Below are positions 18,555-40,780 of a stretch of DNA of 64,000 bases, in pieces (the stretch's first letter is position 1; every line of letters begins with the position of its first letter). Source of the DNA: a virus; the IMG/VR virus record IMGVR_UViG_3300025645_000038, positions 62,001-126,000 of that record. The stretch is one strand, 5' to 3'. Under the pieces are notes generated by a model, which saw only the letters and a program-made list of their open reading frames with translations, had not been told where the DNA came from and ran no database searches. The translations under genes and the position numbers were made by a program.

Positions 18555-21500
18555 ATGGCTATTTTTAGTGGTGACATATTTGCCGAAAATTATACTGTAT
18601 CATCATCTGTAACCAACGTTCAGATATCATCTGTCTCTGGTTCTACAAAGTCTGGTGATACACCAGATGACACTCATCAGTTTACTGGTTCTTTATTCAT
18701 AAGTGCTAGTAGGATTTCATTTGACGATGGTAAACAAAATATTGCTGTTGGTAAATCAGCTCTTTATGGTATTACTTCAGGAGCTGGAAATACTGCTATC
18801 GGTTATGAGGCATTATTAACAGAAGACACAGGTGGTGGTAATACAGCAATAGGTTATCAAGCATTAAAACTTAATAATAAAGATAGTTCTACAGCAGGAA
18901 ATACTGTTATAGGTTATCAAGCAGCTACTGCTTTTACTAGTCACCAAAGAAATACTATTATTGGTTATCAAGCTGCTTTATCTGCAGATGGTGGAGAAAA
19001 TAATAATACTATAATTGGCTGGCAAGCTGGAATGAGTATGAATAGTAATGATGCAAGTAATAATGTTATCATTGGAAAAGAAGCGGGTACTGGAGGAACT
19101 GGTACATTAGCAAGTGCGGTAATTATAGGTGAAGGTGCTATGAACTCAACTGCAAATCAAGCATCTACTGGACAAGTAGCAGTTGGTAGGAGTGCTCTTA
19201 CTGCACTTACATCAGGAATTGGTAATACTGCTATTGGATACAAAGCAGGTCAAGGAATAACCTCCGATAGTAGAAACACAATCATTGGATATGAAGCAGT
19301 ATACTCCTCATCATTAAATGATGATATGGTTGTTGTTGGACACAAAGCTGGTTACAATCTAAAAGGTGATTCTGAACATGGTGGTGTACTTATTGGTTCT
19401 GAAGCTGGATATAATTTAACAGACGATGCTACTTATGCATTACGACCTAATATGTTCATTGGATATCAAGCAGGCTACAATTTCACAACAGCTAATCCAA
19501 GTATGGGTATCGGATATAAAGCTTTATGGGGAGAATATGTAGGTGCTAATGGTACTAGTCACTCTAATATTTATGGTAGTAATTTAGCTATCGGTGATTT
19601 TGCTGGATACGCTGGTGGTAATACAACAGGATTTGGTGGTAACACATATGCAGGACACTTTTCTGGTGAAGGTCATGTAGGTGGTGGATCTACACATATC
19701 GGTTACGAAGCTGGTAGATACACAGCTTCTGGTTCTCAAGATGTTTTTATTGGATACAATGCAGGAAAGATTACACACTTATCAGGTGATTCATCAAGCA
19801 CTCCTACTGCTAGATTAGGTCTTAACGTTGCTATTGGTTATAAAGCTCTGATGTCTGGTGGTACAACTAATGTTGCTATTGGTCATGAAGCATTGACACA
19901 TCAATCTGGAAGTTCTAAAAATACCGCTGTTGGATACGCTGCAATGGAAAACTCAGCTAGAAATATATCAGGTGTGACTGCAGTTGGTTACTCTGCTGGT
20001 AGTTCTGCAACGGGATTTTATTCTGTTTTAATTGGAGAGGCGGCAGGATATAACGCTAGTATAGCTACTGTTTCAATTGGTTACTATGCTGGATACAGAA
20101 CAGCAGCTTATACAACAGCTATTGGTTATGGTGCACTTTCAAGAGGAACAGGTACCAGAAATGTTGCAGTTGGTACAGACACTCTACGAGGATATCCATA
20201 CACACAAAACCAAGAAACAGGTAACAGTACAGGTACAAATAATACTGCTATTGGTTATAATGCAGGACTAGCTTACAATTCTGCTAGTTATAATACTCTT
20301 GTTGGTTATTCAGCTGGATACCGTATTGATAATGGTGAATATACTGTTCACATTGGTAACGAAGCTGGTAGATACGCAACCGGTTCTCGAAATACGTTTG
20401 TAGGAAATGAAGCTGGTAAAGGTGGACAAGCATCTGCTCCGTATAGTTCAGGTCAGGATAATGTTTCTGTTGGATATAGATCTCTTTATAGTTTCACAAC
20501 AGGTCAAAGTAATGTTGCGATTGGAAAATCAGCAGCTCAAAATCTTACCACTGGAGTTTATAATACCGCAGTCGGTAATGAAGCTTACTCTGGTACAACG
20601 GGTAATAACAATACAATAATAGGAAGGGCTGCTGGCGCTTCAATGACAACTGGTCAACAAATTACAGCAGTTGGGGCTACAACATTTAACTATCTCACAG
20701 TTGCTACAGATTCTACTGCAATAGGATTCGATGCGGGAGAATATGCTACAGGTTCCTACAACACATTCGTAGGTTCATCTGCAGGAAAAGGTGGAACAAC
20801 TTCTGCTCCATTTAGTTCAGGTCAGAATAATACTGCTCTTGGATATCAAGCTCTTACTGCTTTCACGACTGGTGGTTCAAATACTGCTATTGGATATCAA
20901 GCTGGATATCTAATCTCATCAGGATCTTATAATGTAACTATGGGATATCAAGCTGGTTACAGTTTGGGTGGAACTTTTAATAATGTAATGATTGGTAATT
21001 ATGCGGGAGCACTTAGCAACACAATAAATAATAGGAATGTATATGTCGGTGATTCAGCAGGTAGATATCTCGATACAGGTATTGCAAATGTTGCTATCGG
21101 TTATGAAGCTATGGAGTCAGCTGGTTCTGGTAATGACGCCTCATATAACACCGCTATAGGATATCATGCATTGGAATCAATCACAGATGCTGATTACAAT
21201 ACCGCTATAGGACAAGCCGCAGGTCAAAATATTGAGGGTGGTAGTGGTCAGAACGTATTTATTGGAAACAGTGCTGGTATAACTTCAGTTACCAGTGCAT
21301 TCAATATAATGATTGGAGTAAGTGCAGGTCTTGCTGCTACGGATGTGGATAAAACAGTTCTGATAGGATGGAACGCTGGAAGAAACACAACCGCAGACGG
21401 AACAATCGCTATCGGATACCAAGCTTTGCTCGAACACACGACTGGTGTAAGAAATATTGCTATTGGTAGAGATGCAATGAAAGGCACAAACGCTGGTTCT

Positions 21501-24500
21501 AATTCTTTAGGTTCAAGTGATAATATATTTATCGGTGACCAAGCTGGTGGTGGAACTTGGACAGATGCGGCTTCAAATGGTAACGTTGGTATTGGTACTT
21601 ATGTTATGGATGCATCTACAGATGGAGCATTATACAATACAGCAGTAGGTGCTTACGCTGCAAGTGCTATAACCCAAGCTGATAATGTCGTAGCTATCGG
21701 AAATAGTGCGGCTTATAGTTTAACAACTGCTTCAAATAATATCGCCATAGGATTTTCAGCTATGAAAGTTCACACAACCGGTGGTGATAATATTGCTATT
21801 GGTGCTAATGCGATGGATGATACTGATGCTGGTTCAACCTCTCTTGGTTCAACAAATAATATTTTTATGGGTTACAATGCTGGTGGTGGAACTTGGGCTG
21901 ATGCGGCTTCTAGCTATAATGTGGGTATTGGTAATTATGTTATGGATGGAGCTTTAAATGGAGCTACATATAATACCGCTCTTGGTCATCAAGCTCTTAC
22001 TTCTATAACAACTGGTGATTATAACGTTGGACTTGGATATCTAGCATTAGGTAATTCTACAACTGCTGGTACAAATGTAGCAGTCGGTGGATATGCGGGA
22101 GCATCAATAACAACTGGTGGAAATAATGTTTCTATTGGATACACATCCCTAAATACCGTTACAGTTGGAACAGATAATATAGCTATTGGAAAAGACTCTG
22201 GTAGATACACAACTGGTTCATACAACACATTCGTAGGCTCAGAAGCAGGAAAAGGTGGAACAACCTCTGCTCCGTTTAGTTCAGGTGAACAAAATACTTC
22301 TGTTGGATATCAAGCTCTCAAAGCTTTTACTACTGGAGGTCAAAATATTGCGATTGGGCACCAAGCTTCTATGGGTGTATCTACAGGAGCTAAAAACGTA
22401 GTTATTGGAAGGTCATCCTTTTCATCAGCTACAACAACTTCAAATGTTGTATTGATTGGAGATGAAGCTGGTAAAGCAATAAACTCAACAGACGCAAACG
22501 GAACAGTTGCTATTGGATATAATGCAGGTGCATCAATTACTGAAGGTCAATATAACACTATCATCGGCCACGGTGCAGGTGATGCTATGTCAACAAGTGA
22601 CCAAAATACTATCATTGGTTATAACGCTGGTACATCTATTGTAACTGATGGAGCTAGAGGTTCAACTCTAATAGGTATGCAAGCTGGAGAAGATTTAACA
22701 TCAGGTGGTTATAATACAGCTATGGGTAGAGGAGCTTTGAGAACTATGACTACTGGACAAGGTAATATTGCAATCGGTGACCAAGCTATGCAATATGTTC
22801 CAGCTAGTGCAGCAATTAATTATGTGATGGGAATTGGATATGCTGCTTTAAACGATGCTCCTAATTTGAGTACAGCGGCAAATGAAAGTATGGCTATCGG
22901 TTTTGCTGCGGGAACAAACGCTAGTAACTTAGCTGCAGAATTTGTATTAATTGGTTCATACGCAGGTCAAAAATATAATGGTGTGGGTGGTACTATCATT
23001 GGTTTCAATGCTGGACAATATGCAAGTGGTTCTTACAACACATTCGTAGGAAAAGAAGCAGGTAAAGGTGGAACAACATCTGCTCCATTTAGTACAGGTA
23101 CTTATAATACTGCTGTTGGATATGCCGCTCTTGATGCTTTCACAACTGGTGGTTCAAACACAGTTGTCGGAAATTATGCTGGTAGTGGTATAACAACTGG
23201 TGGTAGTAATGTTTTTATAGGTGGTCAGGCTGGTTTAAGTATAACCGACCATTCTCGAAATGTCACAATAGGTGATGGTGCAGGTAGAGCTGGAGCAGGA
23301 AATTATGCTAATAATGTAATAGTTGGATATGGTACGGCTGATAGAACAACTGGTGATTATCAGGTTATTATAGGTTCTCAGGCTATGGGTGGAACTTCTG
23401 TTACCGGAGAGAATAATACCGTAATGGGATTTCAAGCTCACGGAATTTCAACAGGACCCGGTGCTGCAGCAAATAATGTAACGATTGGATTTCAAGCACA
23501 ATACCATTCTTCTGGTAGTAATAATGTTGCTATTGGATATAAAGCTGGATTTGATAATCAAGCCACTGGTCAAACTTTTGTTGGATATCAAGCTGGTACA
23601 AATGTTACTTCAGGAGTACAGAATACTGCTATTGGATATAATGCACTTTATGTAGCAACAACTGGAGGTTATAATACAGTTATTGGTTACAACGCCGGTG
23701 ATGCTATCACGACTGCAAATTACAGTACGCTTGTCGGTGCCTCTGCTGGTAGTTCGATAACCACACAACAATACAATACATTGGTTGGTTCTTATTGTGG
23801 TTATGGATTAGATGCTGGAGATGGTCAGAATACGGCTGTTGGTAGAGAAGCATTGTACTATGGTGATGGTAGTGCTTCCAATGTTGCTATCGGTCAGTTA
23901 GCTCTGTACGGAGCATCCGGTACTAACAATGCTACCGCTAATGTTGCATTAGGAAATTCAGCTCTTCAAAATACTTCTACAGGTGACTACAATGTTGCTA
24001 TAGGATTTAAGGCCGGTGAGAAAAATAATAATAGTCAAAACATTTTTATCGGAAACCTTGCATCAGGTTCTGGTGCTGACCAAGAAATCGTAATAGGTTC
24101 TGGTACAAGCACATATCAGAATCCATTAATCGGTGGTGGTACTGAAACAATCAGAATAGGTAGAGCATCAGACTTTATCACAAATGATTTCGGTGAGAAT
24201 GCTACTTGGACACATTCCTCAGATAGAAGAATTAAAAAAGATATAAAAGATACCAACTTAGGATTAGAATTTATACTTAAACTACAACCAAAAGAATTTA
24301 AGAAAAAGGCACCAAGTGAGTATCCTAAAGAATTTGAACAACATAATTCAGATACTACGGAAAGAAAGAATCCAGATAGAATACATTATGGTTTCGTTGC
24401 TCAAGAAGTTAAAGAGGCAATGGATGAAGTAGGACACTCAGAGTTTCCTGTATGGAAAGAAAATAGAGATGGAATGCAAGAACTTGGTGAAACAGAATTA

Positions 24501-24611
24501 ATCACACCTCTTGTAAAAGCAGTTCAAGAACTTTCATCAGAAAACGAAAGATTAAAAGACAAATTAAATGATTTGGAAATATTTATTATGGATAAGCTAG
24601 GAGACAAATAG
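18555..24611 (+). CDS. Giant YadA-like beta-roll fibre with S74 chaperone (2,018 aa)
   Basis: N-terminal ~50 residues are the GDIFAENYTVSSSVT...DDTHQFTGS anchor module. Residues ~60-1870 are an almost unbroken row of 13-20-residue repeats around N-T-A-I-G-Y-x-A, the pattern of the left-handed parallel beta-roll in YadA-type trimeric adhesin heads. Residues ~1885-2018 are a peptidase S74 / endosialidase-type intramolecular chaperone: WTHSSDRRIKKDI, IHYGFVAQEVKEAMDEVG, LITPLVKAVQEL and a terminal coiled coil. Such domains trimerise the fibre and usually release themselves by cleavage near the SSD motif. It directly adjoins its neighbours, so it is co-translated. Likely a host-binding fibre of unusual length. 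Confidence 0.9.
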   Translation: MAIFSGDIFAENYTVSSSVTNVQISSVSGSTKSGDTPDDTHQFTGSLFISASRISFDDGKQNIAVGKSALYGITSGAGNTAIGYEALLTEDTGGGNTAIGYQALKLNNKDSSTAGNTVIGYQAATAFTSHQRNTIIGYQAALSADGGENNNTIIGWQAGMSMNSNDASNNVIIGKEAGTGGTGTLASAVIIGEGAMNSTANQASTGQVAVGRSALTALTSGIGNTAIGYKAGQGITSDSRNTIIGYEAVYSSSLNDDMVVVGHKAGYNLKGDSEHGGVLIGSEAGYNLTDDATYALRPNMFIGYQAGYNFTTANPSMGIGYKALWGEYVGANGTSHSNIYGSNLAIGDFAGYAGGNTTGFGGNTYAGHFSGEGHVGGGSTHIGYEAGRYTASGSQDVFIGYNAGKITHLSGDSSSTPTARLGLNVAIGYKALMSGGTTNVAIGHEALTHQSGSSKNTAVGYAAMENSARNISGVTAVGYSAGSSATGFYSVLIGEAAGYNASIATVSIGYYAGYRTAAYTTAIGYGALSRGTGTRNVAVGTDTLRGYPYTQNQETGNSTGTNNTAIGYNAGLAYNSASYNTLVGYSAGYRIDNGEYTVHIGNEAGRYATGSRNTFVGNEAGKGGQASAPYSSGQDNVSVGYRSLYSFTTGQSNVAIGKSAAQNLTTGVYNTAVGNEAYSGTTGNNNTIIGRAAGASMTTGQQITAVGATTFNYLTVATDSTAIGFDAGEYATGSYNTFVGSSAGKGGTTSAPFSSGQNNTALGYQALTAFTTGGSNTAIGYQAGYLISSGSYNVTMGYQAGYSLGGTFNNVMIGNYAGALSNTINNRNVYVGDSAGRYLDTGIANVAIGYEAMESAGSGNDASYNTAIGYHALESITDADYNTAIGQAAGQNIEGGSGQNVFIGNSAGITSVTSAFNIMIGVSAGLAATDVDKTVLIGWNAGRNTTADGTIAIGYQALLEHTTGVRNIAIGRDAMKGTNAGSNSLGSSDNIFIGDQAGGGTWTDAASNGNVGIGTYVMDASTDGALYNTAVGAYAASAITQADNVVAIGNSAAYSLTTASNNIAIGFSAMKVHTTGGDNIAIGANAMDDTDAGSTSLGSTNNIFMGYNAGGGTWADAASSYNVGIGNYVMDGALNGATYNTALGHQALTSITTGDYNVGLGYLALGNSTTAGTNVAVGGYAGASITTGGNNVSIGYTSLNTVTVGTDNIAIGKDSGRYTTGSYNTFVGSEAGKGGTTSAPFSSGEQNTSVGYQALKAFTTGGQNIAIGHQASMGVSTGAKNVVIGRSSFSSATTTSNVVLIGDEAGKAINSTDANGTVAIGYNAGASITEGQYNTIIGHGAGDAMSTSDQNTIIGYNAGTSIVTDGARGSTLIGMQAGEDLTSGGYNTAMGRGALRTMTTGQGNIAIGDQAMQYVPASAAINYVMGIGYAALNDAPNLSTAANESMAIGFAAGTNASNLAAEFVLIGSYAGQKYNGVGGTIIGFNAGQYASGSYNTFVGKEAGKGGTTSAPFSTGTYNTAVGYAALDAFTTGGSNTVVGNYAGSGITTGGSNVFIGGQAGLSITDHSRNVTIGDGAGRAGAGNYANNVIVGYGTADRTTGDYQVIIGSQAMGGTSVTGENNTVMGFQAHGISTGPGAAANNVTIGFQAQYHSSGSNNVAIGYKAGFDNQATGQTFVGYQAGTNVTSGVQNTAIGYNALYVATTGGYNTVIGYNAGDAITTANYSTLVGASAGSSITTQQYNTLVGSYCGYGLDAGDGQNTAVGREALYYGDGSASNVAIGQLALYGASGTNNATANVALGNSALQNTSTGDYNVAIGFKAGEKNNNSQNIFIGNLASGSGADQEIVIGSGTSTYQNPLIGGGTETIRIGRASDFITNDFGENATWTHSSDRRIKKDIKDTNLGLEFILKLQPKEFKKKAPSEYPKEFEQHNSDTTERKNPDRIHYGFVAQEVKEAMDEVGHSEFPVWKENRDGMQELGETELITPLVKAVQELSSENERLKDKLNDLEIFIMDKLGDK
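18730..24150 (+). repeat. YadA-head-like repeat region, second giant fibre
   Basis: Roughly one hundred degenerate repeats encoding N-[TV]-A-[IV]-G-[YN]-x-A-G and variants. Embedded are four longer cassettes of the type ATGSYNTFVG...AGKGGTTSAP-[FY]-SSGQ (near 20385, 20755, 22215, 23035) and two copies of a ~70-residue DAGS...GGGTW...NVGIG...VMD cassette (near 21495 and 21825). Confidence 0.85.
24333..24415 (+). repeat. 83-bp exact direct repeat, copy 1 (S74 domain)
   Basis: Begins TTTGAACAACATAATTC and encodes FEQHNSDTTERKNPDRIHYG and onward. It is identical to 29550-29632 over 83 bases, within a longer region of high similarity covering the S74 chaperone of both paralogues. Confidence 0.9.
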
Positions 24612-27600
24612 GTGAAAATTTATAGTTCGGAAATATCAGGATCTCTTAAAGTTCGTGGTGATATATTTGCAGAAAACTATGTAGTAAAATCTACAGTATC
24701 AACGATTACCCAATCGTTTAGTAGTGGTTCTACTATATTTGGTGATAGTAACGATGATACTCATAGATTTACTGGTTCTTTATTCATAAGTGCTAGTAGG
24801 ATTGATTTAGATGATAGTAAAAATAATATAGCGATAGGTAAAAATTCAATTTCTGTAATAGGTGCTGGTCAAGGTGGTAATGTTGCAGTAGGCTACGAGT
24901 CTATGAAATCAGCAGGAACAGCTGCTAATAATAATGCTGAATTTAATACTGCTATAGGTTATGAAAGTTTAAAAGATGTTACTACTGGATATACCAATGT
25001 GGCAGTTGGTAAAGGTGCTGGTGAATCACTTACTACTGGACATAGTAATGTCGCTATAGGAACTGGAGCACTAGATGTTGCTACCGATGTTGATAATACA
25101 GTTATAATTGGGAAAAAAGCTGGTGAAGCAAATATGACATCAGCTGCAGACGGAACGATATCTATCGGATATTCAGCAGGTGCCGCGATTACTTCAGGTG
25201 CAAGTAATATTGCTATTGGGTATGAAGCCTTAAAAACGACTACAACTGGTTTAAGAAATATTGCAATCGGTTATGAGGCTATGCACGATACCGATGCTGG
25301 TTCGAGTTCATCTGATTCAGATAATAATATTTTTATAGGATACACTGCTGGTGGTGGAGCTTGGGCAGACGCTAAATCAGAAAATAATGTTGCTATTGGT
25401 AGTAATGTTATGCAAGGAGTTTTAAACGGAGCTAATAACAACACTGCATTAGGTTATTTTGCTCTCGCATCTATAACATCAGGTGATACTAATGTTGGAA
25501 TAGGCGCAGAAGCGGGTGGTACACTTACCGTAGGTATAAAAAATGTTATGATGGGATACCAAGCTGGAAATTTAGTAAATCATGCGAATGCAGATGAAAA
25601 TGTACTAATAGGATACGCCGCTGGTAAAGGTGGTACTGGAGAGATGAAACGATGTATTGTAATTGGTTCTCAGGCAATGGATTCAACTACAGACCAAGCT
25701 CAAACTGGTACAATAGCAATCGGTCATGCCGCTCTTTCTGCTCTTACTTCTGGAACTGGTAATACAGCAGTAGGATACAGTGCAGGAGGTGCAATAACCA
25801 ATTCGTCTCAAAATACTTTTTTAGGTTATGCTTCAGGAGATACTAACATTGGAGATCATAGTGTTGCAGTAGGCTATCATGCATTAAAAGGAGTATCAGG
25901 TAATGCAAATAGTTACAATACTGCTGTTGGTTCAAGAGCAATGGATTCTGTTACTACTGGTGGAAGTAATGTAGCAGTAGGATTTGATTCTTTAGGTGCA
26001 ATCACAACTGCTACTGGAAATACAGCAATCGGATATAACGCAGGAGATACAATCACAACAAGTGGTTATAATGCTCTAGTAGGTTATGAAGTAGGTCAGG
26101 CTTTAGCAGGTGGTAGTGGTCAAAATGTCGCTATCGGATACCAACCTCTGTATAATGGAACTAGTAATACTAGGGTTATCGCAATAGGTTCAAGAGCAGG
26201 ATATAATAGTACGGCAGACAATAATGTTTATATAGGCTATTCGGCAGGTAGAGAAAGTCGTGCAGGCGTTAGTCAAGTCTATATCGGTAACCAAGCTGGA
26301 TACTACGCAACTGGTTCATACAATACATTTGTAGGAGATGACGCTGGAAAAGGTGGAACAACATCTGCTCCGTTTAGTTCAGGTCAGTATAATACTGCTG
26401 TTGGAAGACAAGCTCTTGGTGGTTTTACAACTGGTGGAAGTAATACAGCAGTAGGGTATACTGCAGGAAACGCTGTAACAACAGGCACGGAAAATACTTT
26501 TCTTGGATTTCATGCTGGATACAACGCGACTGGTACTAATAGTTATGCTGTTCTTATAGGATCTTATGCTGGTTATCAAAATAATAATGGATCAGTCGTT
26601 TACATTGGTCGTTACGCTGGATATGCAGGAAGTGGTCATATAGGAGGTGGTAACATTGCAATAGGGTATCACGCACTATTCACTAATCGTTCAACCGATG
26701 AAGAAGGATGCAAATGGAATATTGCTATCGGAAGAGGTGCCATGAATAATGCAACTGATACTCTTGGTGCAGCTCATAGTAATGTTGCTATTGGATATAC
26801 TGCTCTAAAGAATATAGAAAGTGGAAGTCGTAATATAGCAATCGGTGGTCAACAAGGTGGTGGTGATGGTGGTACTGGTGAATTTCTAAAAAATGGTGAT
26901 TATAATGTTTTTGTTGGTTCTAAAGCAGGTCAAGGAATAGATTCTGGTAACATACATTCAGATAAAAATGTATTTTTAGGTGCTAGTGCAGGTGCTGGTC
27001 ATAACGGTGCAGAAGGTAATGTTGGTATTGGTTATTTGGCTTTAACATTTGCTAGAGGAGACTACTCCGTTGCTATTGGTAGGTCAGCTGGTGACCATGC
27101 AACTGGTTCTTATAATACTTTTGTAGGTGGTTACGCTGGACAAGGCGGAACAACTTCTGCTCCCTATAGTTCAGGTCAGAATAATGTTGCGGTTGGATAT
27201 CAAGCTCTTGACGGTTTTACAACTGGTTATTCTAATGTTGCAGTCGGTAGAATTGCATTGGGTGGAGTAGGCACTGGTTTTAGAAATGTTGGAATAGGTG
27301 ATGGTGCTGGGCAGAGTTTAACAACTGGTAATGAAAATGTAGCAGTTGGATATAATGCGTTAAAATTAGCAGGTACTACCAGTAATCAGGTAGCTATTGG
27401 GAAAAACGCATTACATTCAGTTCAAACTGGAACTGGTAATACTGGTCTTGGATATAATACATTGTACCAAAATTCAAGTGGAAATAATAATGTCGCTATC
27501 GGATACAATGCAGGATTTTTCGGTTCAGCTAAAACTGAAAATGTACTCATTGGACTTTACGCAGGATACAACGCTACTGGCTCTTTTAACACTTTTGTAG

Positions 27601-29828
27601 GTTCTCAAGCTGGAAAAGGTGGAACAACATCTGCTCCATATAGTTCAGGTCAGAATAATGTTGCTATGGGATACGAAGCTCTTAAATCTTTCACAACCGC
27701 ACAAAGAATGGTAGCAATCGGATACGAAGCTATGACGGATGTTAAAGATGGTCAAGATAGTGTTGCCATAGGATATCAAGCAGCCTACTACAACTCAAGT
27801 AGTTATAGTGTATCCATAGGTAAGGGTGCTGGAATGGTAATGGGTGGTGGTTATAATGTTTCCGTAGGATTTGGAGCTGGTGGTTCAGCATCCGATTCAA
27901 ATGTTGCTATCGGACAAAGAGCAATGGGATTACAGCCAGCTGCTAATGAGAATGTTGCTGTTGGTAGTGTCGCTGGTTCTAATTTAATTGGAGGTTTTAC
28001 AGCAATAGTTGGTGCTCAAGCTGGTAGACATGCAACTGGTTCTTATAACACATTTATGGGATATAAGGCTGGTTATGGTTCAATAACATCTGCTCCGTTT
28101 AGTTCAGGTGAAAATAATACTGCACTTGGATACAATGCTCTTAAAGCTTTCACGACTGCTGCTTCAAATACAGTAATCGGATATTCTGCTGGTAGTAGTA
28201 TAACAACCGGTGGTGCTAACATACTTATCGGCTCCCAAGCTGGTATGAACATAACAACAACCACGAGTAACGTAGTGATAGGTAATAATGCAGGTCAACA
28301 TCTTGGTGGTTCAAATGCTGATAATCATGCTAATAGAAACGTAATCATCGGTCACTCCGCTGCAAAAGGAAGTAGTCCATCTATAGCAAAAGGTCACTAT
28401 AGTGTTGTAATAGGTGACCAAGCTCAATATCATTTTAAAAGTGGTAGTCAAAATGTTTATATGGGATATCAGTCTAGTTACTACAATCAAAATGGAAACT
28501 ATAATGTTACCATTGGAAGTGGTGCTGGATCCAATGCAACTGGTTCTAGTAATACTTTTGTTGGATATAGGTCTGGTAAAGGTGGAAACTCATCTGCTCC
28601 ATATAGTTCAGGTGGAAATAATACTGCTTTTGGATATGAAACTCTTACTGCTTTCACGACTGGTGAGTCTAATGTAGCCGTTGGTAGAGAAGCAGGTCAT
28701 GACATCACTACAGGTACTGGCAACACTTTAGTCGGTAATGCTGCAGGTGATAAAATAACAACAGCTGAGTATAATACTGCTATTGGAGCTGGTGCACTTG
28801 GTTCACAAGCAGCAGATGCGGATGGAAACATCGCTATTGGTGATTTTGCTATGGGTGCTGTCAATAATGCAGCTTCTATAGAAAATGTAGTAGTCGGTGG
28901 ATATGCAGGAAGTGGTGGTACTGGTCAACTTATACGAACCGTTGCTATAGGTAAAAATGCTCTTAATTCTACAGGTACTGCAAATCTGACTGGTACAGTA
29001 GCAATAGGATACAACGCAGGAACGGCTATAAATCATGCTGCTGCTCTATCCTCAACTTTAGTTGGATATTTATGTGGTGATTCTATAACATCAGGAGCTG
29101 GTAACTCAGCTTTTGGTTACGAAGCATTAACTGCCCAATCTGTAAATGGTTGGAACGCTGCCTTTGGTAATTATTCTGCTCACGCACATACAGGAGCATA
29201 TAGTACTTTTCTAGGTACTAAAGCTGGTGAAAATTTAACTTCGGGTAATAATGCTATTCATATTGGATTCAACACAGCTGCTTCAGCCGTAGATGTTGAT
29301 AGTGAGTATGTAATTGGAGCTGGAACTTCATTCTCAGACGGATTGACTGGTGGTGGAACTGAAACAATAAGAATAGGTGTTTCTACGGATTACATAACAA
29401 ATGATTTTGGTGAGAATGCTACTTGGACACATTCATCAGATAGACGAGTTAAGAAAAACATTGAAGATAACGATTTAGGATTAGGGTTTATAGAAAAACT
29501 AAGAACACGAAAGTTTCAAAAGAAAGCACCTAGTGAATATCCTGAAGAGTTTGAACAACATAATTCAGATACTACGGAAAGAAAGAATCCAGATAGAATA
29601 CATTATGGTTTCGTTGCTCAAGAAGTTAAAGAAGCTATGGATTCAGTAGGACACTCAGAGTTTCCTGTTTGGAAGGAAAACAGAGATGGAATGCAAGAAC
29701 TTGGTGAAACAGAATTAATTACACCTCTTGTAAAAGCAGTTCAAGAACTTTCTTTAGAAAATAAAGAATTAAAAGACGAACTTAATGAGTTGAAGATACT
29801 TATTAAAAAGAAATTAGGAGACGAATAG
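24612..29828 (+). CDS. Giant YadA-like beta-roll fibre with S74 chaperone (1,738 aa)
   Basis: Paralogue of the preceding gene with the same three-part plan. An N-terminal anchor module (GDIFAENYVVKSTVSTITQ...DDTHRFTGSLFISASRIDLDD) comes first, then ~1,500 residues of NTAIGY-type beta-roll repeats, then an S74 domain (WTHSSDRRVKKNIED, IHYGFVAQEVKEAMDSVG) and C-terminal coiled coil. The S74 part shares an 83-base exact DNA repeat with the upstream paralogue. The start is GTG immediately after the previous TAG (TAGGTG), preceded by AGGAG inside the upstream gene, so it is coupled. The stalk repeats have diverged far more than the ends, which suggests stalk remodelling between fixed anchor and chaperone parts. 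Confidence 0.9.
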   Translation: MKIYSSEISGSLKVRGDIFAENYVVKSTVSTITQSFSSGSTIFGDSNDDTHRFTGSLFISASRIDLDDSKNNIAIGKNSISVIGAGQGGNVAVGYESMKSAGTAANNNAEFNTAIGYESLKDVTTGYTNVAVGKGAGESLTTGHSNVAIGTGALDVATDVDNTVIIGKKAGEANMTSAADGTISIGYSAGAAITSGASNIAIGYEALKTTTTGLRNIAIGYEAMHDTDAGSSSSDSDNNIFIGYTAGGGAWADAKSENNVAIGSNVMQGVLNGANNNTALGYFALASITSGDTNVGIGAEAGGTLTVGIKNVMMGYQAGNLVNHANADENVLIGYAAGKGGTGEMKRCIVIGSQAMDSTTDQAQTGTIAIGHAALSALTSGTGNTAVGYSAGGAITNSSQNTFLGYASGDTNIGDHSVAVGYHALKGVSGNANSYNTAVGSRAMDSVTTGGSNVAVGFDSLGAITTATGNTAIGYNAGDTITTSGYNALVGYEVGQALAGGSGQNVAIGYQPLYNGTSNTRVIAIGSRAGYNSTADNNVYIGYSAGRESRAGVSQVYIGNQAGYYATGSYNTFVGDDAGKGGTTSAPFSSGQYNTAVGRQALGGFTTGGSNTAVGYTAGNAVTTGTENTFLGFHAGYNATGTNSYAVLIGSYAGYQNNNGSVVYIGRYAGYAGSGHIGGGNIAIGYHALFTNRSTDEEGCKWNIAIGRGAMNNATDTLGAAHSNVAIGYTALKNIESGSRNIAIGGQQGGGDGGTGEFLKNGDYNVFVGSKAGQGIDSGNIHSDKNVFLGASAGAGHNGAEGNVGIGYLALTFARGDYSVAIGRSAGDHATGSYNTFVGGYAGQGGTTSAPYSSGQNNVAVGYQALDGFTTGYSNVAVGRIALGGVGTGFRNVGIGDGAGQSLTTGNENVAVGYNALKLAGTTSNQVAIGKNALHSVQTGTGNTGLGYNTLYQNSSGNNNVAIGYNAGFFGSAKTENVLIGLYAGYNATGSFNTFVGSQAGKGGTTSAPYSSGQNNVAMGYEALKSFTTAQRMVAIGYEAMTDVKDGQDSVAIGYQAAYYNSSSYSVSIGKGAGMVMGGGYNVSVGFGAGGSASDSNVAIGQRAMGLQPAANENVAVGSVAGSNLIGGFTAIVGAQAGRHATGSYNTFMGYKAGYGSITSAPFSSGENNTALGYNALKAFTTAASNTVIGYSAGSSITTGGANILIGSQAGMNITTTTSNVVIGNNAGQHLGGSNADNHANRNVIIGHSAAKGSSPSIAKGHYSVVIGDQAQYHFKSGSQNVYMGYQSSYYNQNGNYNVTIGSGAGSNATGSSNTFVGYRSGKGGNSSAPYSSGGNNTAFGYETLTAFTTGESNVAVGREAGHDITTGTGNTLVGNAAGDKITTAEYNTAIGAGALGSQAADADGNIAIGDFAMGAVNNAASIENVVVGGYAGSGGTGQLIRTVAIGKNALNSTGTANLTGTVAIGYNAGTAINHAAALSSTLVGYLCGDSITSGAGNSAFGYEALTAQSVNGWNAAFGNYSAHAHTGAYSTFLGTKAGENLTSGNNAIHIGFNTAASAVDVDSEYVIGAGTSFSDGLTGGGTETIRIGVSTDYITNDFGENATWTHSSDRRVKKNIEDNDLGLGFIEKLRTRKFQKKAPSEYPEEFEQHNSDTTERKNPDRIHYGFVAQEVKEAMDSVGHSEFPVWKENRDGMQELGETELITPLVKAVQELSLENKELKDELNELKILIKKKLGDE
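24810..29330 (+). repeat. YadA-head-like repeat region, third giant fibre
   Basis: Continuous N-x-A-I-G-x-x-A-type repeats. Five cassettes of the ATGSYNTFVG...SAP-[FY]-SSG type lie near 26310, 27105, 27580, 28035 and 28540; one DAGS...GGGAW...VMQ cassette lies near 25290. Confidence 0.85.
29550..29632 (+). repeat. 83-bp exact direct repeat, copy 2 (S74 domain)
   Basis: Identical to 24333-24415. The two copies are 5.2 kb apart in direct orientation, so recombination between them would delete one fibre while keeping an intact open frame. Confidence 0.9.
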
Positions 29829-32800
29829 GTGAAAATTGATAGCCCAACCTTTTTAAGTGAAACTACTTTTATAAGTGCTTCAGTTCAATTCTCAAGTGGT
29901 TCACAAAAATTTGGTAATACTACAGATGACCAACACCAGTTTACTGGCTCTCTTAAAATTGGTGGTACTTCATTTTTCAGAGATATTGGTTCTGCCCACC
30001 AAGTATACATAGATTCAGATACTGGTGGTGTAGCACAGATAGGAACTAACACATATACACCATTAAGTATACGAGCTAACGGAAACCAAGCTATATACAT
30101 CAGTCAAGGCGCTGTGGTTTCAATGGGTACTACAAACGTAGGTAATCTAACATCTACTGGTACTATAGTAAGCACTGGAGCTAATGCTTTAATAAGTGGT
30201 TCATCTACTTCAACTGGTTCTTTTGGTATGATTACAACACCAAGTGATATTGGTGGTAAACCAGCTGCAAGATTACATAAATTTGCATTCCTTAGAGCTT
30301 CAGATTCTGGAGATACTAGTACAAGTGGATATAATAGTAAATCAGGTAACACAATATTTGGATATGATGCCGCTTCTCAAATAGTTCAGAATAATGGAGC
30401 TGGACATTCCAATACCTACATCGGACATTATGCCGGGCATGGTAACGCGAGTGGAGATCATAATACTGCTATTGGGCATGTAGCAGGTCTTGGTGGAAGT
30501 GGTGATAATAATACTTCTGTAGGATCTTATGCTGGGTATAATATAACCTCTGGTGGAAATTTAGTTTTAATAGGTAGGAGCGCTGGTGTAAGCATTACCG
30601 AAATGAGTGATACCGTGGTAATCGGATATAATGCTGGCGATGCTCTAACGACTGGAGTTGGAAGAAATGTTGCTATCGGTTCTGGTGCTATGAGTGCTAT
30701 GACAACTGAAACTCAAAATGTTGCTATCGGTTCTTCTGCTCTTGGTACTGCTACTGTTGCAAGTAATGTTATCGCTATCGGACATAGAGCCGCTGTTGCC
30801 CTAAGTCATGGTGATAGTAGTGGTACGATTGCTATAGGAGCTTTAGCATTAGAAGGTGCTACCGGAGCTCATAGTGGAAATATCGCTATCGGTTACAGAG
30901 CAATCAACAATGCGACTACTAATGTTGCTGGAGCGGTTGCTCTTGGATATGAGGCTCTATACTCCAATACAGATAATACTGGTAATATCGCTATCGGTTT
31001 CTATGCTATGAGAGATGGTGCTGGTGGTTCAAGTAGAGATTATAATATTGCTATAGGTAGAGAAGCGATGAGGAATGCAAATGCACATGTTTCTGTTGCT
31101 ATTGGATATACCGCTGGTAAGTTTATTAAAGATGGTGGTACTGGTGTTACCGTAGTCGGACATGAAGCTGGAAATTATGCGAGTGGTAGTGCAAATACAT
31201 TTATGGGATACCAAGCTGGTCAAGGCGGAACAACATCTGCTCCATATAGTACAGGTACAAATAATGTTGCTCTTGGATATGGAGCTCTTACAGCTTTCAC
31301 TACTGGAGATGAGAACGTTGCTCTAGGATACGAAGCTGGAAGCAATATGACAACAGGTAATAGGAACATAGCAATAGGTTATCAAGCAAAAGCTGGTACT
31401 GTTGGATCTGATAATATAGTTGTTGGTAAAGTTGCAGGAGTTGGATTTTCAAGTGGATATAAAAATATCGTAATGGGAAATCAAGCTGCAGCTGGTCATA
31501 ACGGAATTGAAAATGTAGTTATTGGTCATCAAGCAATGGGTGGTGGTTCTACAGGCGTAGATAAAACAATTATCATAGGATATCAAGCTGCTTACAATAT
31601 TAATTCAGCAGACGCAGACGGAACAATTGCTATTGGATATACAGCAGGTGGAAGTATTACTTCAGGTGCTAAAAACACAGTTGTGGGATACCAAGCTGGT
31701 AATAAAATAACCGATAGTGATAATATTACTTATATAGGTTATGGAGCTGGTTATTATGCAACTGGAGCACACAATACTGCTGTAGGTACTGAAGCCTATT
31801 TAGGTGTAGATGGAAGTACAACTGGTACTGATAACTCTATATTTGGGTATTATGCTGGGCGTGATTTAACTACTGGACATAGTAATGTTTTAATGGGTAG
31901 AGATGCTGGTCAAAATTTAACGAGTGGTTATCAAAATATTATCATTGGACCTGATGCTGGAGAAACTGCTACCAACTTACAGAACGCAATTCTTATAGGT
32001 AAAAGAGCTGGTCAAGATATAAATAGCGGTGTTCATGGCACTATTGCAATAGGTACAGATGCTCTTACTTCGCTCACTTCAGGTGCAAGTAATCTTGCTA
32101 TCGGTTATGAAGCTATGAAAGTTCACACAACTGGTGGTAACAATATCGCTATCGGTTATCAAGCTATGGATGATAATGATGCTGGTTCAAATTCTTTAGC
32201 TTCACAACACAATATCTTTATTGGAAATGCAGCAGGTGGTGGAACTTGGACAAATGTGGCTTCGAGTTACAATGTTGGTATTGGTAACAATGTTATGGAT
32301 GCAGCTATGGCTGAAGCGTGGTATAATACAGCACTCGGAAATCAATCCCTAAGTGCTCTAACATCAGGTGATTACAATGTAGGGCTTGGATACCTTGCTC
32401 TAAATGCTGTCACCACTGGTGAAAGTAATGTTGCTGTTGGAAAAAATGCAGGAGCTGGACTAACAACGGGTATTCGTAATGTCGTAATTGGAGATGGGGC
32501 TCTCGATACAGCTGCTACTGCAGATGTTGATTATAATGTCACAATAGGATATGATGCTGGTTTGGGTATAACAAGTGATGCAAATGTTACTATTGGTGCT
32601 TTTGCTGGACAATATATTAAAGGTGGTAGTTCTGTTCATATTGGATATGAAACTGGTAAATTTGCTAGTGGTAGTTCAAATACATTTGTAGGACTAAAAG
32701 CTGGAAAAGGTGGAACAACATCTGCTCCTTATAGTTCAGGTACAGGTAATACTTTTCTCGGATACCAGACAGGAAAAGATTTTACAACTGGTTATAACAA

Positions 32801-35800
32801 TGTTGGTGTCGGTTATCTTACTCTTCACAATATCACGACAGGATATGAAAATAATTTTATAGGTAACCAATCAGGTCATGTAATCACAACTGGTTATTAC
32901 AACGAAGGAATCGGACATAAAGCTTTAAACTCACTCACAACAGGAATTGGTAATATCGGTATAGGTGCTTTTGCTGGGGCTCACGGAGCTAGAAACTATA
33001 GTATCTTTATGGGATACCAAGCTGGTTACTACGATGGTGGTGGTGGTATGGTAGTTTTAGGACAACAAGCTGGTCAGTATACTGCTGGTGGTAATAGTAT
33101 ATTATTAGGTAAGGAAACTGGTAGATATGTAAGTGGTAGTAACAATGTTATGTTAGGATATAATGCTGGAAAAGGTAACTCAGTTCAGGCAACTACAGCC
33201 ACAATGACAAATGTTTATAGCAATGTGGGAGTAGGTTCTTATACTCTTTTGCAACTAGGTGCAGGAATGAATAATAGTGTAGCTGTTGGTAGTGCAGCTG
33301 GTCAGAATACAACTGGTTCTTACAATACTTTCGTGGGTGGAGAAGCTGGAAAAGGTGGAACAACATCTGCTCCGTTTAGTTCAGGTCAGTATAATACTGC
33401 TGTTGGATACAGAGCTCTTGAAGAGTTCACAACTGGTGGATATAATTCTATACTAGGTCAAGAAGCAGGTGAAAAAATTACAACAGGTGAATCTAATAAT
33501 TTATTTGGTTATCGTGCAGGAAGACATATAACAACTGGAAATTCTAATATAGTAATTGGAACTGAAGCTCTAAGAGATGAAAATGTATCTTCAGTCGTTG
33601 CAATAGGTTCAAGAGCTGGATTATATAATTCAGGTAATGATAATGTTTATTTAGGTGATACCGCTGGAAGAAATTCTGGTGCTGGAGCAGACCAAGTTAT
33701 TATTGGTCATGATGCTGGTTACTACGCTACTCATGATGATGTTGTAATAATCGGTGAGTCCGCTGGATATTACGCAACTGGTTCTGGTAACACATTCATA
33801 GGAAAAGAAGCTGGAAAAGGTGGAACAACTTCTGCTCCTTACAGTTCAGGTGAAAAGAATGTGGCTGTTGGATATAATGCTCTTACTGGTTTCACAACTG
33901 GAGAAAGAGTAGTAGCAGTAGGCTACAACGCAGGTGCTTCATTAACCACAGGTGGTCAAAGTGTCTTTATCGGATACAATGCAGGTGATGGTACTACCAA
34001 TTCTTATAGAAACATTGCTATTGGAGATAACGCTTTAAGTGAAGCTGCTGGCGATGATAATATAGCTGTTGGATTGTTTGCTCTAAGAACTAATACAGGT
34101 GGGGGAAACATCGGAATTGGTACAAGGGCAGGTGAAACCATTACCTCAGGTACAAGAAACATAGCAATCGGTTGGAGAACAATGTGGGATCTCGATGCTG
34201 GTTCAAACTCATCTACCTCTCAAGATAATATTGCTATTGGTTATGCTGCTATGAATGGAACTTGGGCGAATACTAGGTCAGATTTAAATGTTGCTATCGG
34301 TAACTACTCTATGGATGGTGCTTTAGATGGTGCTAATTACAATGTTGCTCTTGGATATGAAACATTAAGTTCAATAACAGGAGATGATGCAAATGTTGCT
34401 ATCGGTTATAGGGCTATGTCGGGAGGTGGAGGAAGTCAAAATATCGCCATAGGTGCTGACGCTATGTATCAAGGCCCAACAGGTGGTACAAACTATGCTA
34501 TCGGTAGATACACTATGATGGATTGTAATGCTGGTTCTAATGCATTGAGTTCAAATAGTAATATAGCTATAGGACATTCTGCTTTAGGTGGAACTTGGGC
34601 AGATGCTGATTCGAATAGAAACATTGCCATTGGTCATTATACTATGGATGCGGGTGTAGATGGAGCATTGGATAATGTTGCTGTAGGACACTACGCATTA
34701 AGTTCAATAACAAGTGGTGATTTTAATACTGCACTTGGCTCAAATGCAGGATTATCCATCACAACTGGTGCAGATAACGTAGTTATCGGGTATCTTGCTG
34801 GTGATACGATGACGGATACAGGTAATACAGTTTTAATCGGCAAAAGTGCTGGACAAGCCATAAATAACAGCACCGCAAATTATACAATTGCTATAGGATT
34901 TAACGCACTTTCAAGTTTAACAAATGGTCATAGTAATATTGGTATAGGCGGTAATACTCAAACAGGTATAAGCACAGGAGATGGCAATGTCACTATTGGT
35001 TATAATACTATGTCTGATTTTAATGCTGGTGTTAACTCTGCTAACTCAAGTAATAATATAGCAATTGGTAATGGTGCAATGAGTGGAACTGTAACAAATG
35101 CGGCTTGTAACGATAACATCGCAATAGGTGCAAACACTCTGGCTGCTGCTTTAGATGGAGCATTATATAACATAGCAATTGGAGTTACCTCTCTTAATGA
35201 TTTAACCACTGGTGACAAAAACGTTTCTATTGGAAACAATTCGTTACAGAAATTGACTACAGGCGAAAGAAATACCTCTGTTGGTTATGATACTGGTGGA
35301 GATGGTGGTAATGCCGCTCTAACTGGCAATGATAATGTTTTGATTGGAACAGGCGCAGGTACTAATTTAGAAGGTGCAGGACACTCTAATACTTTTATAG
35401 GTTCTGCCGCAGGTGCTGTTACAACTACAGGAGTTGAAAACACTACTCTAGGATTCAATACAGAAATTCAAGATGCTACTGCAACAAATCAAATTGTTAT
35501 TGGAAATAATTTAACAGGAACAAAGGATAATGCAGTATTCATTGGTAATGATACAAACCATATTGAAAATGATTTTAATGCAGATGCTACTTGGAACTAT
35601 TCATCAGATGTAAGACAAAAAACTGAGATAGAGGATGATATTTTAGGGTTGGACTTTATAAATAATATAAGGCCAGTAGTGTACAAACACAAATCACCAA
35701 GTGAGTTTCCAAAGGAATGGAGTGCTTATGACGCAGATGATAAAGAGCCTATGGGTGGCGATAAAAGGATTCATGGATTAATTGCTCAAGAGGTAAAAGA

Positions 35801-35972
35801 AGCGTTAGATGAAGTTGGTGCAGACTCTTTTGGTGGTTGGTCTGAAGGAGATGACGGAAGACAGAGGGTTTCAAGAGAAATGTTTGTGACACCATTGATA
35901 AAAGCAGTTCAAGAGCTATCTAAAAAGGTTGAAGAACAACAAAAAGAGATAGAAGAACTAAAAAATAAATAA
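29829..35972 (+). CDS. Giant YadA-like beta-roll fibre with divergent S74 chaperone (2,047 aa)
   Basis: GTG start directly after the previous TAG, with AGGAG at 29816-29820. The N-terminus is a reduced anchor (TFISASVQFSSGSQKFGNTTDDQHQFTGS) followed by one ISGSSTSTGSFG module near residue 122. The stalk (residues ~170-1900) is of NTAIGY-type repeats. The C-terminal S74 domain (WNYSSDVRQKTEIEDD, IHGLIAQEVKEALDEVGADSFGGW, VTPLIKAVQELSKK) is clearly diverged from the other two and ends in a coiled coil. It is the last of the fibre operon; a new promoter follows. Possibly a fibre with a different oligomer partner or receptor. Confidence 0.9.
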   Translation: MKIDSPTFLSETTFISASVQFSSGSQKFGNTTDDQHQFTGSLKIGGTSFFRDIGSAHQVYIDSDTGGVAQIGTNTYTPLSIRANGNQAIYISQGAVVSMGTTNVGNLTSTGTIVSTGANALISGSSTSTGSFGMITTPSDIGGKPAARLHKFAFLRASDSGDTSTSGYNSKSGNTIFGYDAASQIVQNNGAGHSNTYIGHYAGHGNASGDHNTAIGHVAGLGGSGDNNTSVGSYAGYNITSGGNLVLIGRSAGVSITEMSDTVVIGYNAGDALTTGVGRNVAIGSGAMSAMTTETQNVAIGSSALGTATVASNVIAIGHRAAVALSHGDSSGTIAIGALALEGATGAHSGNIAIGYRAINNATTNVAGAVALGYEALYSNTDNTGNIAIGFYAMRDGAGGSSRDYNIAIGREAMRNANAHVSVAIGYTAGKFIKDGGTGVTVVGHEAGNYASGSANTFMGYQAGQGGTTSAPYSTGTNNVALGYGALTAFTTGDENVALGYEAGSNMTTGNRNIAIGYQAKAGTVGSDNIVVGKVAGVGFSSGYKNIVMGNQAAAGHNGIENVVIGHQAMGGGSTGVDKTIIIGYQAAYNINSADADGTIAIGYTAGGSITSGAKNTVVGYQAGNKITDSDNITYIGYGAGYYATGAHNTAVGTEAYLGVDGSTTGTDNSIFGYYAGRDLTTGHSNVLMGRDAGQNLTSGYQNIIIGPDAGETATNLQNAILIGKRAGQDINSGVHGTIAIGTDALTSLTSGASNLAIGYEAMKVHTTGGNNIAIGYQAMDDNDAGSNSLASQHNIFIGNAAGGGTWTNVASSYNVGIGNNVMDAAMAEAWYNTALGNQSLSALTSGDYNVGLGYLALNAVTTGESNVAVGKNAGAGLTTGIRNVVIGDGALDTAATADVDYNVTIGYDAGLGITSDANVTIGAFAGQYIKGGSSVHIGYETGKFASGSSNTFVGLKAGKGGTTSAPYSSGTGNTFLGYQTGKDFTTGYNNVGVGYLTLHNITTGYENNFIGNQSGHVITTGYYNEGIGHKALNSLTTGIGNIGIGAFAGAHGARNYSIFMGYQAGYYDGGGGMVVLGQQAGQYTAGGNSILLGKETGRYVSGSNNVMLGYNAGKGNSVQATTATMTNVYSNVGVGSYTLLQLGAGMNNSVAVGSAAGQNTTGSYNTFVGGEAGKGGTTSAPFSSGQYNTAVGYRALEEFTTGGYNSILGQEAGEKITTGESNNLFGYRAGRHITTGNSNIVIGTEALRDENVSSVVAIGSRAGLYNSGNDNVYLGDTAGRNSGAGADQVIIGHDAGYYATHDDVVIIGESAGYYATGSGNTFIGKEAGKGGTTSAPYSSGEKNVAVGYNALTGFTTGERVVAVGYNAGASLTTGGQSVFIGYNAGDGTTNSYRNIAIGDNALSEAAGDDNIAVGLFALRTNTGGGNIGIGTRAGETITSGTRNIAIGWRTMWDLDAGSNSSTSQDNIAIGYAAMNGTWANTRSDLNVAIGNYSMDGALDGANYNVALGYETLSSITGDDANVAIGYRAMSGGGGSQNIAIGADAMYQGPTGGTNYAIGRYTMMDCNAGSNALSSNSNIAIGHSALGGTWADADSNRNIAIGHYTMDAGVDGALDNVAVGHYALSSITSGDFNTALGSNAGLSITTGADNVVIGYLAGDTMTDTGNTVLIGKSAGQAINNSTANYTIAIGFNALSSLTNGHSNIGIGGNTQTGISTGDGNVTIGYNTMSDFNAGVNSANSSNNIAIGNGAMSGTVTNAACNDNIAIGANTLAAALDGALYNIAIGVTSLNDLTTGDKNVSIGNNSLQKLTTGERNTSVGYDTGGDGGNAALTGNDNVLIGTGAGTNLEGAGHSNTFIGSAAGAVTTTGVENTTLGFNTEIQDATATNQIVIGNNLTGTKDNAVFIGNDTNHIENDFNADATWNYSSDVRQKTEIEDDILGLDFINNIRPVVYKHKSPSEFPKEWSAYDADDKEPMGGDKRIHGLIAQEVKEALDEVGADSFGGWSEGDDGRQRVSREMFVTPLIKAVQELSKKVEEQQKEIEELKNK
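30340..35500 (+). repeat. YadA-head-like repeat region, fourth giant fibre
   Basis: Beta-roll repeats as in the two genes before. SAP-[FY]-S-[ST]-G cassettes lie near 31185, 32670, 33310 and 33775. Four DAGS-type ~70-residue cassettes lie near 32175, 34195, 34525 and 35020, more than in either paralogue. Confidence 0.85.
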
Positions 35973-35976
35973 AAAA

Positions 35977-36008
35977 TTGTATTTCGTATAATTATATGAT
36001 ATATATTA
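35977..36008 (+). promoter_or_regulatory. Sigma-70-like extended -10 promoter
   Basis: TTGTATTTC (35977-35985), eleven bases, then TGATATATATTA (35997-36008). Read as -35 TTGTAT, 17-base spacer, -10 TATATA with an extended TGA. The same two blocks with identical spacing occur at 54865-54896. It lies just after the fibre operon and before the 102-residue protein gene. Confidence 0.65.
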
Positions 36009-36040
36009 CTATTAATAAACAAAACTAAGGAGTTATTAAA

Positions 36041-36349
36041 ATGGCTGAAGAAATTAAATTTACTGATGAAGAGTTAAAGTCTCTTCAAGATTTAAGTCAA
36101 AGTTATCAAAACATTCAAGCTTCTTTTGGACAAATGAAAGTTCAGAAGATTCTTAATCAACAACAAGCTGATGCTTTAGAAGAAGCTGAAGTTAAAATGG
36201 ATGCTGATTACAAAGATATTCAGGATTCTGAACGTAAATTGGTTGAGGAATTGAATGAAAAGTACGGACCAGGTCAATTAGACCCACAAACAGGCGTATT
36301 TACACCAACACCACAAGAAGAAGCTGCTGAAGTAGTAGAAGAATCTTAA
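36041..36349 (+). CDS. Small acidic coiled-coil protein of unknown function
   Basis: 102 residues with TAAGGAG at 36026-36032. Acidic and almost entirely helical (FTDEELKSLQDLSQSYQNIQ ... LNQQQADALEEAEVKMDADYKDIQDSERKLVEELNEKYG), then a proline/acid tail. I recall similar short proteins near tail genes in marine T4-like phages, without a known function. It stands alone between the fibre operon and the sheath gene, behind a bacterial-type promoter. That suggests expression earlier than, or independent of, the virion genes: an assembly chaperone or a regulator are both possible. Confidence 0.65.
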   Translation: MAEEIKFTDEELKSLQDLSQSYQNIQASFGQMKVQKILNQQQADALEEAEVKMDADYKDIQDSERKLVEELNEKYGPGQLDPQTGVFTPTPQEEAAEVVEES

Positions 36350-36384
36350 ATAAATCCTTAATCGGTTGTATTTTGGGAATTTTC

Positions 36385-36400
36385 TTTATATTTATATATA
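36385..36400 (+). promoter_or_regulatory. Candidate late promoter for tail sheath
   Basis: TTTATATTTATATATA, 46 bases before ATG 36446. Fifteen bases are identical to the element before the tube gene (39042-39056), and it is nearly the same as 4771-4786 before the scaffold gene. Confidence 0.55.
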
Positions 36401-36445
36401 ATGAATTTTCATATTAATTTTTTAAACCTTTAAAGGAGAAAACAC

Positions 36446-38923: not shown

Positions 38924-38947
38924 TAGGGAGGTGTAAAACAGTAGAAG

Positions 38948-38973
38948 AGGGGAACAATAGTTCCCCTTTTTTA
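38948..38973 (+). terminator. Intrinsic terminator after tail sheath gene
   Basis: AGGGGAAC (38948-38955) and GTTCCCCT (38960-38967) form a perfect 8-bp stem with an AATA loop, followed by a T tract. It separates sheath and tube transcription units. Confidence 0.9.
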
Positions 38974-39041
38974 TTATATCAAAAAACTATGAAAAAACTA
39001 TGAAATAATAACTCAATATTCTGTATCGATTTTTCAGTTTG

Positions 39042-39056: not shown

Positions 39057-39088
39057 GAAAGAATTAAACACTTATTAGGAGAACTGAA

Positions 39089-39577: not shown

Positions 39578-39586
39578 GAGGATAAT

Positions 39587-40772: not shown

Positions 40773-40780
40773 TAAATGTG

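Follow-up and report, generated by a model that had tools for sequence, protein, structure and literature searches.

Three tandem giant fibre genes in a T4-like phage carry distinct conserved N-termini and exchangeable shafts and S74 chaperones

Three giant genes predicted to encode repeat-shaft fibres lie in tandem at positions 18555-35972 of a 64,000-nucleotide stretch of viral DNA (hereafter the window; positions 62001-126000 of the 164,845-bp IMG/VR record IMGVR_UViG_3300025645_000038, which is linear and possibly incomplete), raising the question of whether they encode alternatives to one another, segments of a single fibre, or separate fibres carried together. Comparison with related metagenomic phages revealed that each gene begins with its own conserved N-terminus and that the shafts and C-terminal S74 chaperones behind these N-termini have been swapped between positions. 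The explanation that we regard as probable is that of three homotrimeric fibres with separate docking ends, for which shafts and self-cleaving chaperones are drawn from one exchangeable pool.

The three open reading frames (slots 1 to 3; Table 1) run head to tail with zero spacing and occupy 17.4 kb, more than a quarter of the window, in agreement with a preliminary description of this DNA. That description spoke of three parallel copies; the genes are not near-copies, however, with shafts only 41-48% identical to each other. At all three junctions (a further giant gene, slot 0, precedes slot 1) a Shine-Dalgarno (SD) sequence lies inside the end of the preceding gene, and at both genes with a GTG start it reads AGGAG and lies 8 nt upstream of the start. 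Since the genes abut and each ribosome binding site is embedded in the gene before it, translational coupling across the array is likely. Promoter and terminator scans gave results at chance level, and the count of the T4-type late promoter TATAAATA was uninformative (11 found versus 9.9 expected).

The same three-gene array was found in a related metagenomic phage, G001 (IMGVR_UViG_3300030012_003299), whose tail sheath and tube proteins are 83% and 97% identical to those of the window. Its island contains slot 0 genes followed, in the same place as in the window, by three giant genes of the repeat-S74 type, encoding 2538, 2243 and 2171 amino acids (aa); the C-terminal ~285 aa of slot 0 are 91% identical between the two phages, and the remainder varies. 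N-termini (designated A1, A2 and A3) at the same slot were 93-96% identical between window and G001, compared with 39-61% across slots, and the C-tails that follow S74 were 65-92% identical at the same slot. The S74 domains showed a different pattern: identity at the same slot was 43-49%, and the close relationships crossed slots (window 1/G001 3, 92%; window 3/G001 1, 94%; window 2/G001 3, 85%). Within the window, the S74 domains of slots 1 and 2 are 87% identical. Shafts were 38-49% identical between the two phages whatever the slot, and among decisive 80-aa segments of the G001 shafts the same slot was the best match in 3 of 26, indicating that the shafts have no slot memory.

An S74 tree gave the same picture. 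Slots did not form clades: the slot-3 label has to change 8 times on the tree, with well-supported branches forcing at least 4 of these changes, and window slot 2 groups with the slot-3 gene of another phage, L016 (99% identity, support 99/86). Moreover, three S74 subtypes were found on last-position genes that share one tail and downstream DNA. In cross-phage pairs, different slots become similar in DNA ~85-120 bp upstream of S74 and cease to be so at, or close to, the boundary between S74 and tail; the exchanged unit therefore looks like S74 together with the 28-40 shaft residues in front of it. Shafts are recombined internally as well. In L099, a slot 3/last-position gene of another phage, aa 1-80 correspond to window slot 3 (75/80) and aa 121-240 to window slot 1 (111/120), indicating that in-frame mosaics of position-3 and position-1 shafts exist, and 405 bp of G001 slot 3 are 94% identical to window slot 0.

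The N-termini themselves were followed into rearranged islands. In G046 (IMGVR_UViG_3300029448_000005) they occur once each, in the order A1, A3, A2; A1 (without S74) and A3 sit on ISGSSTSTGSFG-type bodies, and A2 sits on a repeat-S74 fibre of 2639 aa, whose gene has the last-position tail and is followed by a 102-aa gene and the tail sheath. The apparent retention of one each of the three N-termini despite changed order and bodies supports the existence of three docking ends. In G048 (IMGVR_UViG_3300030102_006802), the gene that comes after a slot 2 tail has the A3 N-terminus and a mixed body.

The assignment of an S74 chaperone to each gene, made in the preliminary description, was confirmed: each protein gave one C-terminal PF13884 match above the curated cut-off of 22 bits. 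The catalytic residues S171, D172, R174 and K176 are invariant in 49 sequences that include slots 1 and 2, and the slot 3 motif reads SSDVRQK. Because this Ser-Asp-x-Arg-x-Lys signature is invariant, self-cleavage is likely by analogy with the endosialidase family. An AlphaFold2 (AF2) model of the slot 1 C-terminus (300 residues, 49-row alignment, predicted local distance difference test score (pLDDT) 84) showed short strands ~15-20 residues apart, then S74, then a long helix that extends into the C-tail. Foldseek placed the MyRF ICA structure 7dc3 at the top (probability 1.00, E 2.5e-3), with weaker matches to 3gud (0.85, E 0.37), 3gw6 and the T5 fibre chaperone 4uw8. All three proteins also matched phrog_4636, "tail spike protein" (E 2.5e-152, 1.4e-142 and 1.3e-161 for slots 1, 2 and 3). 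Taken together with the T4-like tail-gene context, the PF13884 matches and the S74/ICA fold, their identity as phage fibres with S74 chaperones is well supported. Matches to these fibres among isolate-phage proteins were below 60% identity, mostly ~30%, and those of slot 1 include marine YadA-like repeat fibres; the S74 region gave only four distant matches (39-42%) against bacterial genomes.

The shafts have a periodicity of 17 residues in all three proteins (autocorrelation 0.17-0.19 versus 0.086 expected from composition), a value that the preliminary description had proposed to determine computationally, and the turn-like motifs of this N-x-A-I-G-Y repeat have a median spacing of 17. The head repeat of YadA has ~14 residues per turn, unlike this period. 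A 200-residue segment from the middle of the slot 2 shaft was modelled by AlphaFold as a regular solenoid, its short strands spaced by about one turn (pLDDT 83, predicted template modelling score 0.82), and the highest Foldseek probabilities for this model were to YadA-type heads (BoaA 3s6l, 0.91; YadA 1p9h, 0.87; CbpF, 0.80), all with E above 0.1. The Pfam YadA_head family PF05658 reached at best 13.9 bits versus a cut-off of 25, with none in hmmscan, and there was no PDB sequence match; membership of the YadA family by sequence was accordingly rejected. A profile search found only weak left-handed beta-helix enzymes. Thus the earlier proposal that the repeat is the left-handed beta-roll of YadA heads is plausible from the regular solenoid and the YadA-type likeness, but the E-values, the sub-threshold family score and the 17-residue period fall short of establishing it; we describe the shaft as working like a YadA-type roll rather than as a YadA head. 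The C-terminal membrane beta-barrel anchor of trimeric autotransporters was not found, S74 being the only Pfam domain there. A long repeat protein without S74 was seen in the single-cell-derived Marine virus AG-345-L05 (L085, 10315-17787; 2491 aa, 118 motifs, no S74 signature), where it adjoins further fibre-like genes.

We propose that the three chains would be made from one message of abutting genes and that each would homotrimerize, nucleated by its C-terminal S74. The shaft would wind as a beta-solenoid with 17 residues per turn, giving roughly 80-100 turns and a length of ~40-50 nm if the rise is ~0.48 nm per turn, and S74 would then cut itself off, exposing the end of the shaft. A1, A2 and A3 would each dock at a separate site of the tail or neck, and a single virion would have all three sites occupied. 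Shafts and S74 domains move between slots and phages by recombination, both in the vicinity of the S74-tail boundary and, with the frame preserved, within the repeats; N-termini and junctions stay. Exchange of these shaft and tip cassettes would alter the host range. Exactly one A1, A2 and A3 was present in every complete island of this type that was examined, for which three different docking positions are the simplest reading. The suggestion in the preliminary description that the fibres are used together is likewise favoured over alternative use by the presence of one each of three distinct N-termini in three phages, although simultaneous use is something that we infer.

Collapse or duplication of repeats during assembly was considered, as the proteins are highly repetitive, and found to be extremely improbable. 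A separate contig, L086 (IMGVR_UViG_3300007276_000427), matches window positions 31037-48920 gaplessly at 99.98% (4 mismatches in 17,884 bp), which excludes such an artefact for this interval, including most of the third gene, and it is unlikely elsewhere: the longest exact direct repeat within 12279-35972 is 83 bp and the same array is present in another phage. Copies of a 236-nt cassette are 62-72% identical in DNA, and the repeats are, judged from their sequence, diverged rather than recently expanded. A biological alternative is that the proteins together build a single long, jointed tail fibre, each forming one segment; in T4, gp34-gp35-gp36-gp37 come from tandem genes and are connected end to end in this way. 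The tandem, abutting genes fit this arrangement, and slot 0 could serve as a large proximal segment without a chaperone. We nevertheless judge it unlikely, since each of the three proteins has its own S74, and the mature end after cleavage would be the part that swaps between slots, so that any joint would have to be generic; the N-terminus order 1-3-2 in G046, with two bodies of another type, also speaks against it. Even less probable is a tropism reservoir, in which the three N-termini would share one attachment point and each virion would carry one fibre or another. The related module in the N-termini and the clear exchange of cassettes are compatible with this, but in every complete island three distinct, strongly conserved N-termini are each kept in a single copy. 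Furthermore, no PF00078 reverse transcriptase match was found in the 164,845-bp record (possibly incomplete), and a diversity-generating retroelement was therefore rejected.

The most serious alternative, which we consider somewhat unlikely, is that the conserved ends are recombination flanks only, with crossovers at gene borders and tail DNA retained for the ribosome binding site of the next gene that it carries, and with no role in docking or sorting. The position-following C-tails of G046, the location of the SD sequence within the tail and the end of cross-slot DNA similarity at or near the S74-tail boundary agree with this; on the other hand, A2 and A3 moved as units in G046 with their protein sequence kept, and a pure flank effect would not preserve one copy of each N-terminus. 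The same question arises for the coiled-coil tails after S74. Within a rack of three separately docked fibres that share a pool of shafts and tips with chaperones, these differing tails could act as removable sorting tags against mixed trimers and be cut off with the chaperone, an idea that we hold to be doubtful. Since the tail tracks position in G046, tails may persist through linkage to the ribosome binding site of the next gene instead. A pairing of each C-tail with its own N-terminus was also considered and is weakened by the last gene of G046, which joins A2 to the last-position tail.

Several observations weigh against three separately docked fibres. Only three islands with all three N-termini were found (window, G001 and G046), and slots 1 and 2 were compared across two or three genomes. 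The C-tail in G046 goes with the position in the genome and not with the N-terminus. A module of the N-termini, GDIxAENxVVxSSVT...FSSGSxxFGDxxDDTHxFTGS, also occurs in mid-chain in the 2091-aa slot 0 protein and in the C-terminal extension of the product of 9358-10926, and so may belong to the shaft instead of serving as a dock. Finally, in two relatives, G005 (L171-L172) and G017 (L173-L175), the island holds entirely different genes. The N-terminal anchor of the preliminary description thus survives as a distinct conserved N-terminus on each gene, for which an anchoring role may be proposed, but a purely anchoring module is made less credible by its occurrence elsewhere in the phage.

Table 1. 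Features of the fibre array, in window coordinates (AF2, AlphaFold2; SD, Shine-Dalgarno).
Feature	Coordinates	Strand	Remarks
Slot 0: fourth giant fibre-like gene, 2091 aa, ISGSSTSTGSFG-linked modules, no S74	12279..18554	+	abuts slot 1, zero spacing
Slot 1: repeat-shaft fibre gene, 2018 aa, S74	18555..24611	+	
Slot 1 N-terminus A1 (MAIFSGDIFAENYTV...), proposed docking end	18555..18692	+	96% to G001 slot 1; once in G046
Slot 1 17-residue-repeat shaft	18693..24215	+	100 turn-like motifs, median spacing 17; AF2 model of C-terminal end
Slot 1 S74 intramolecular chaperone, Ser-Asp-x-Arg-x-Lys intact	24216..24533	+	PF13884, 48.6 bits
Slot 1 C-tail (NDLEIFIMDKLGDK) and stop	24534..24611	+	long helix in AF2 model; SD AGGAG (24599-24603) for slot 2
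Slot 2: repeat-shaft fibre gene, 1738 aa, S74, GTG start	24612..29828	+	
Slot 2 N-terminus A2 (VKIYSSEISGSLKVRGDIF...)	24612..24779	+	95% to G001 slot 2; A2 also in G046
Slot 2 17-residue-repeat shaft	24780..29432	+	84 turn-like motifs; AF2 model of 26304-26903
Slot 2 S74 domain	29433..29750	+	41.1 bits; 99% identical to slot-3 S74 of L016
Slot 2 C-tail (LKILIKKKLGDE) and stop	29751..29828	+	SD AGGAG (29816-29820) for slot 3; like tail in G048
Slot 3: repeat-shaft fibre gene, 2047 aa, S74, GTG start	29829..35972	+	from 31037 on confirmed by contig L086
Slot 3 N-terminus A3 (VKIDSPTFLSETTFISAS...)	29829..29951	+	93% to G001 slot 3; A3 in G046, G048
Slot 3 body: ~100-130 aa non-repeat proximal part, then 17-residue-repeat shaft	29952..35600	+	102 turn-like motifs
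Slot 3 S74 domain	35601..35918	+	33.5 bits; subtype of G001 slot 1 (94% identical)
Slot 3/last-position C-tail (QQKEIEELKNK) and stop	35919..35972	+	common to contigs with 102-aa gene and tail sheath next

The window derives from a T4-like myovirus, as indicated by PHROG profile matches to the major head protein, head-tail adaptor, tail sheath stabiliser, tail sheath and tail tube. The nearest annotated relatives of its major capsid protein are those of Microcystis phage Mel-JY01 (51% identity) and Flavobacterium phage immuto (49%), which are too distant for host assignment. No near-DNA relatives of the window were found among isolate phages; the lineage is present in many environmental contigs. 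The fibre array occupies a variable island between the neck genes and the tail sheath and tube: in Mel-JY01 the homologues of the neck genes, the 102-aa gene and the sheath gene are adjacent with zero fibre genes in between, and in the window the same interval holds ~25 kb of fibre and associated genes. In the islands of G005 and G017 the repeat-S74 fibres are replaced by a giant, glycine-rich gene with S74 (2176 or 2704 aa), accompanied by enzyme-like genes; by eye, two of the latter resemble NodU/CmcH-type carbamoyltransferases and are candidates for this family. L087 (IMGVR_UViG_3300028844_003739) has sheath and tube proteins 99.9% and 100% identical to those of the window, flanking genes at 85-92% and a very different last-position fibre, and looks like a recent backbone recombinant. 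Two nearby sheath-like genes were observed in a 484-kb uncultured phage (L165, LR756508.1; 34464-36935 and 37953-40424, 25% and 39% identical to the window sheath).

Upstream of the array, the product of 9358-10926 is a neck protein that resembles tail sheath stabilisers and is extended at its C-terminus by a stretch in which the module GDIIAENFVVTSSVT...FASGSTKFGDSPDDTHRITGS of the fibre N-termini recurs. It has 522 aa compared with 333 aa in the Mel-JY01 homologue, and the alignment covers the first half only. The shared module is a possible clue to a neck or collar position of the fibres. The 239-aa product of 11232-11951 matches tail-fibre and baseplate-wedge PHROGs and contains a stretch that we take to resemble the YHYH-type domain of cyanophage structural proteins.

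Fibres with YadA-like domains and S74 are already known from marine phages. They were reported in pelagiphages together with under-recruiting fibre islands (Mizuno et al. 2014, PMC3909814), and cyanophage S-TIM4 encodes ORF108, a YadA-domain structural protein of 2235 aa in which all populations that had been passaged on different hosts acquired mutations (PMC6224464); by analogy with ORF108, the window fibres may also be incorporated into the virion. These proteins and the "T4-like proximal tail fiber" of P-SSM2 resemble the window fibres in the long N-x-A-I-G shaft, in S74 (in some) and in tail-fibre annotation. They were reported as single genes, whereas in the window three genes stand in tandem, each with its own conserved N-terminus, and S74 domains and shafts have been swapped. 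Hypervariable host recognition clusters were described in 2020 in pelagi- and cyanomyophages (PMC7029224), and these, like the metaviromic islands (PMC3909814), share with the window a hypervariable fibre island in the structural region. The window island differs in lying between neck genes and tail sheath and in that its content could be resolved into fixed N-termini and shuffled modules.

The multi-spike system TSP1-4 of the Ackermannviridae combines conserved N-termini with exchangeable receptor-binding domains (review PMC11721090). The window likewise has several putative receptor-binding proteins, conserved but non-identical N-termini and exchangeable distal parts. However, the Ackermannviridae spikes are enzymatic beta-helices with gp10-like/XD adaptor domains, and the window fibres are repeat solenoids with S74, in which Pfam gave no match to a gp10-like/XD adaptor or a depolymerase beta-helix; moreover, chaperone and shaft move across positions in the window fibres, unlike in those spikes. 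The likeness to T4 gp34-37 lies in tandem giant fibre genes within a T4-like genome, and the difference in the S74 on each of three genes and the distinct conserved N-termini; none of the gp34-37 families in PHROGs or Pfam was matched by the window fibres. With Yersinia YadA and other trimeric autotransporter adhesins the fibres have a similar NxAIG repeat in common, and YadA-type heads gave the best Foldseek probabilities, but the fibres have a 17-residue repeat and S74 in place of the membrane anchor. No description of a three-N-terminus array with exchange of S74 and shafts across positions was found in the open-access literature searched, with most subscription journals outside this scope.

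Phages with several fibres must change their host-binding parts without breaking docking or folding, and natural recombinants of the kind described here allow the fixed parts (N-termini and junctions) to be read apart from the moving parts (shafts, and tips with S74). Two questions now become testable: how one virion may carry several different giant fibres at once, and how S74 domains as near-identical as those within this one genome avoid forming mixed trimers in one cell.

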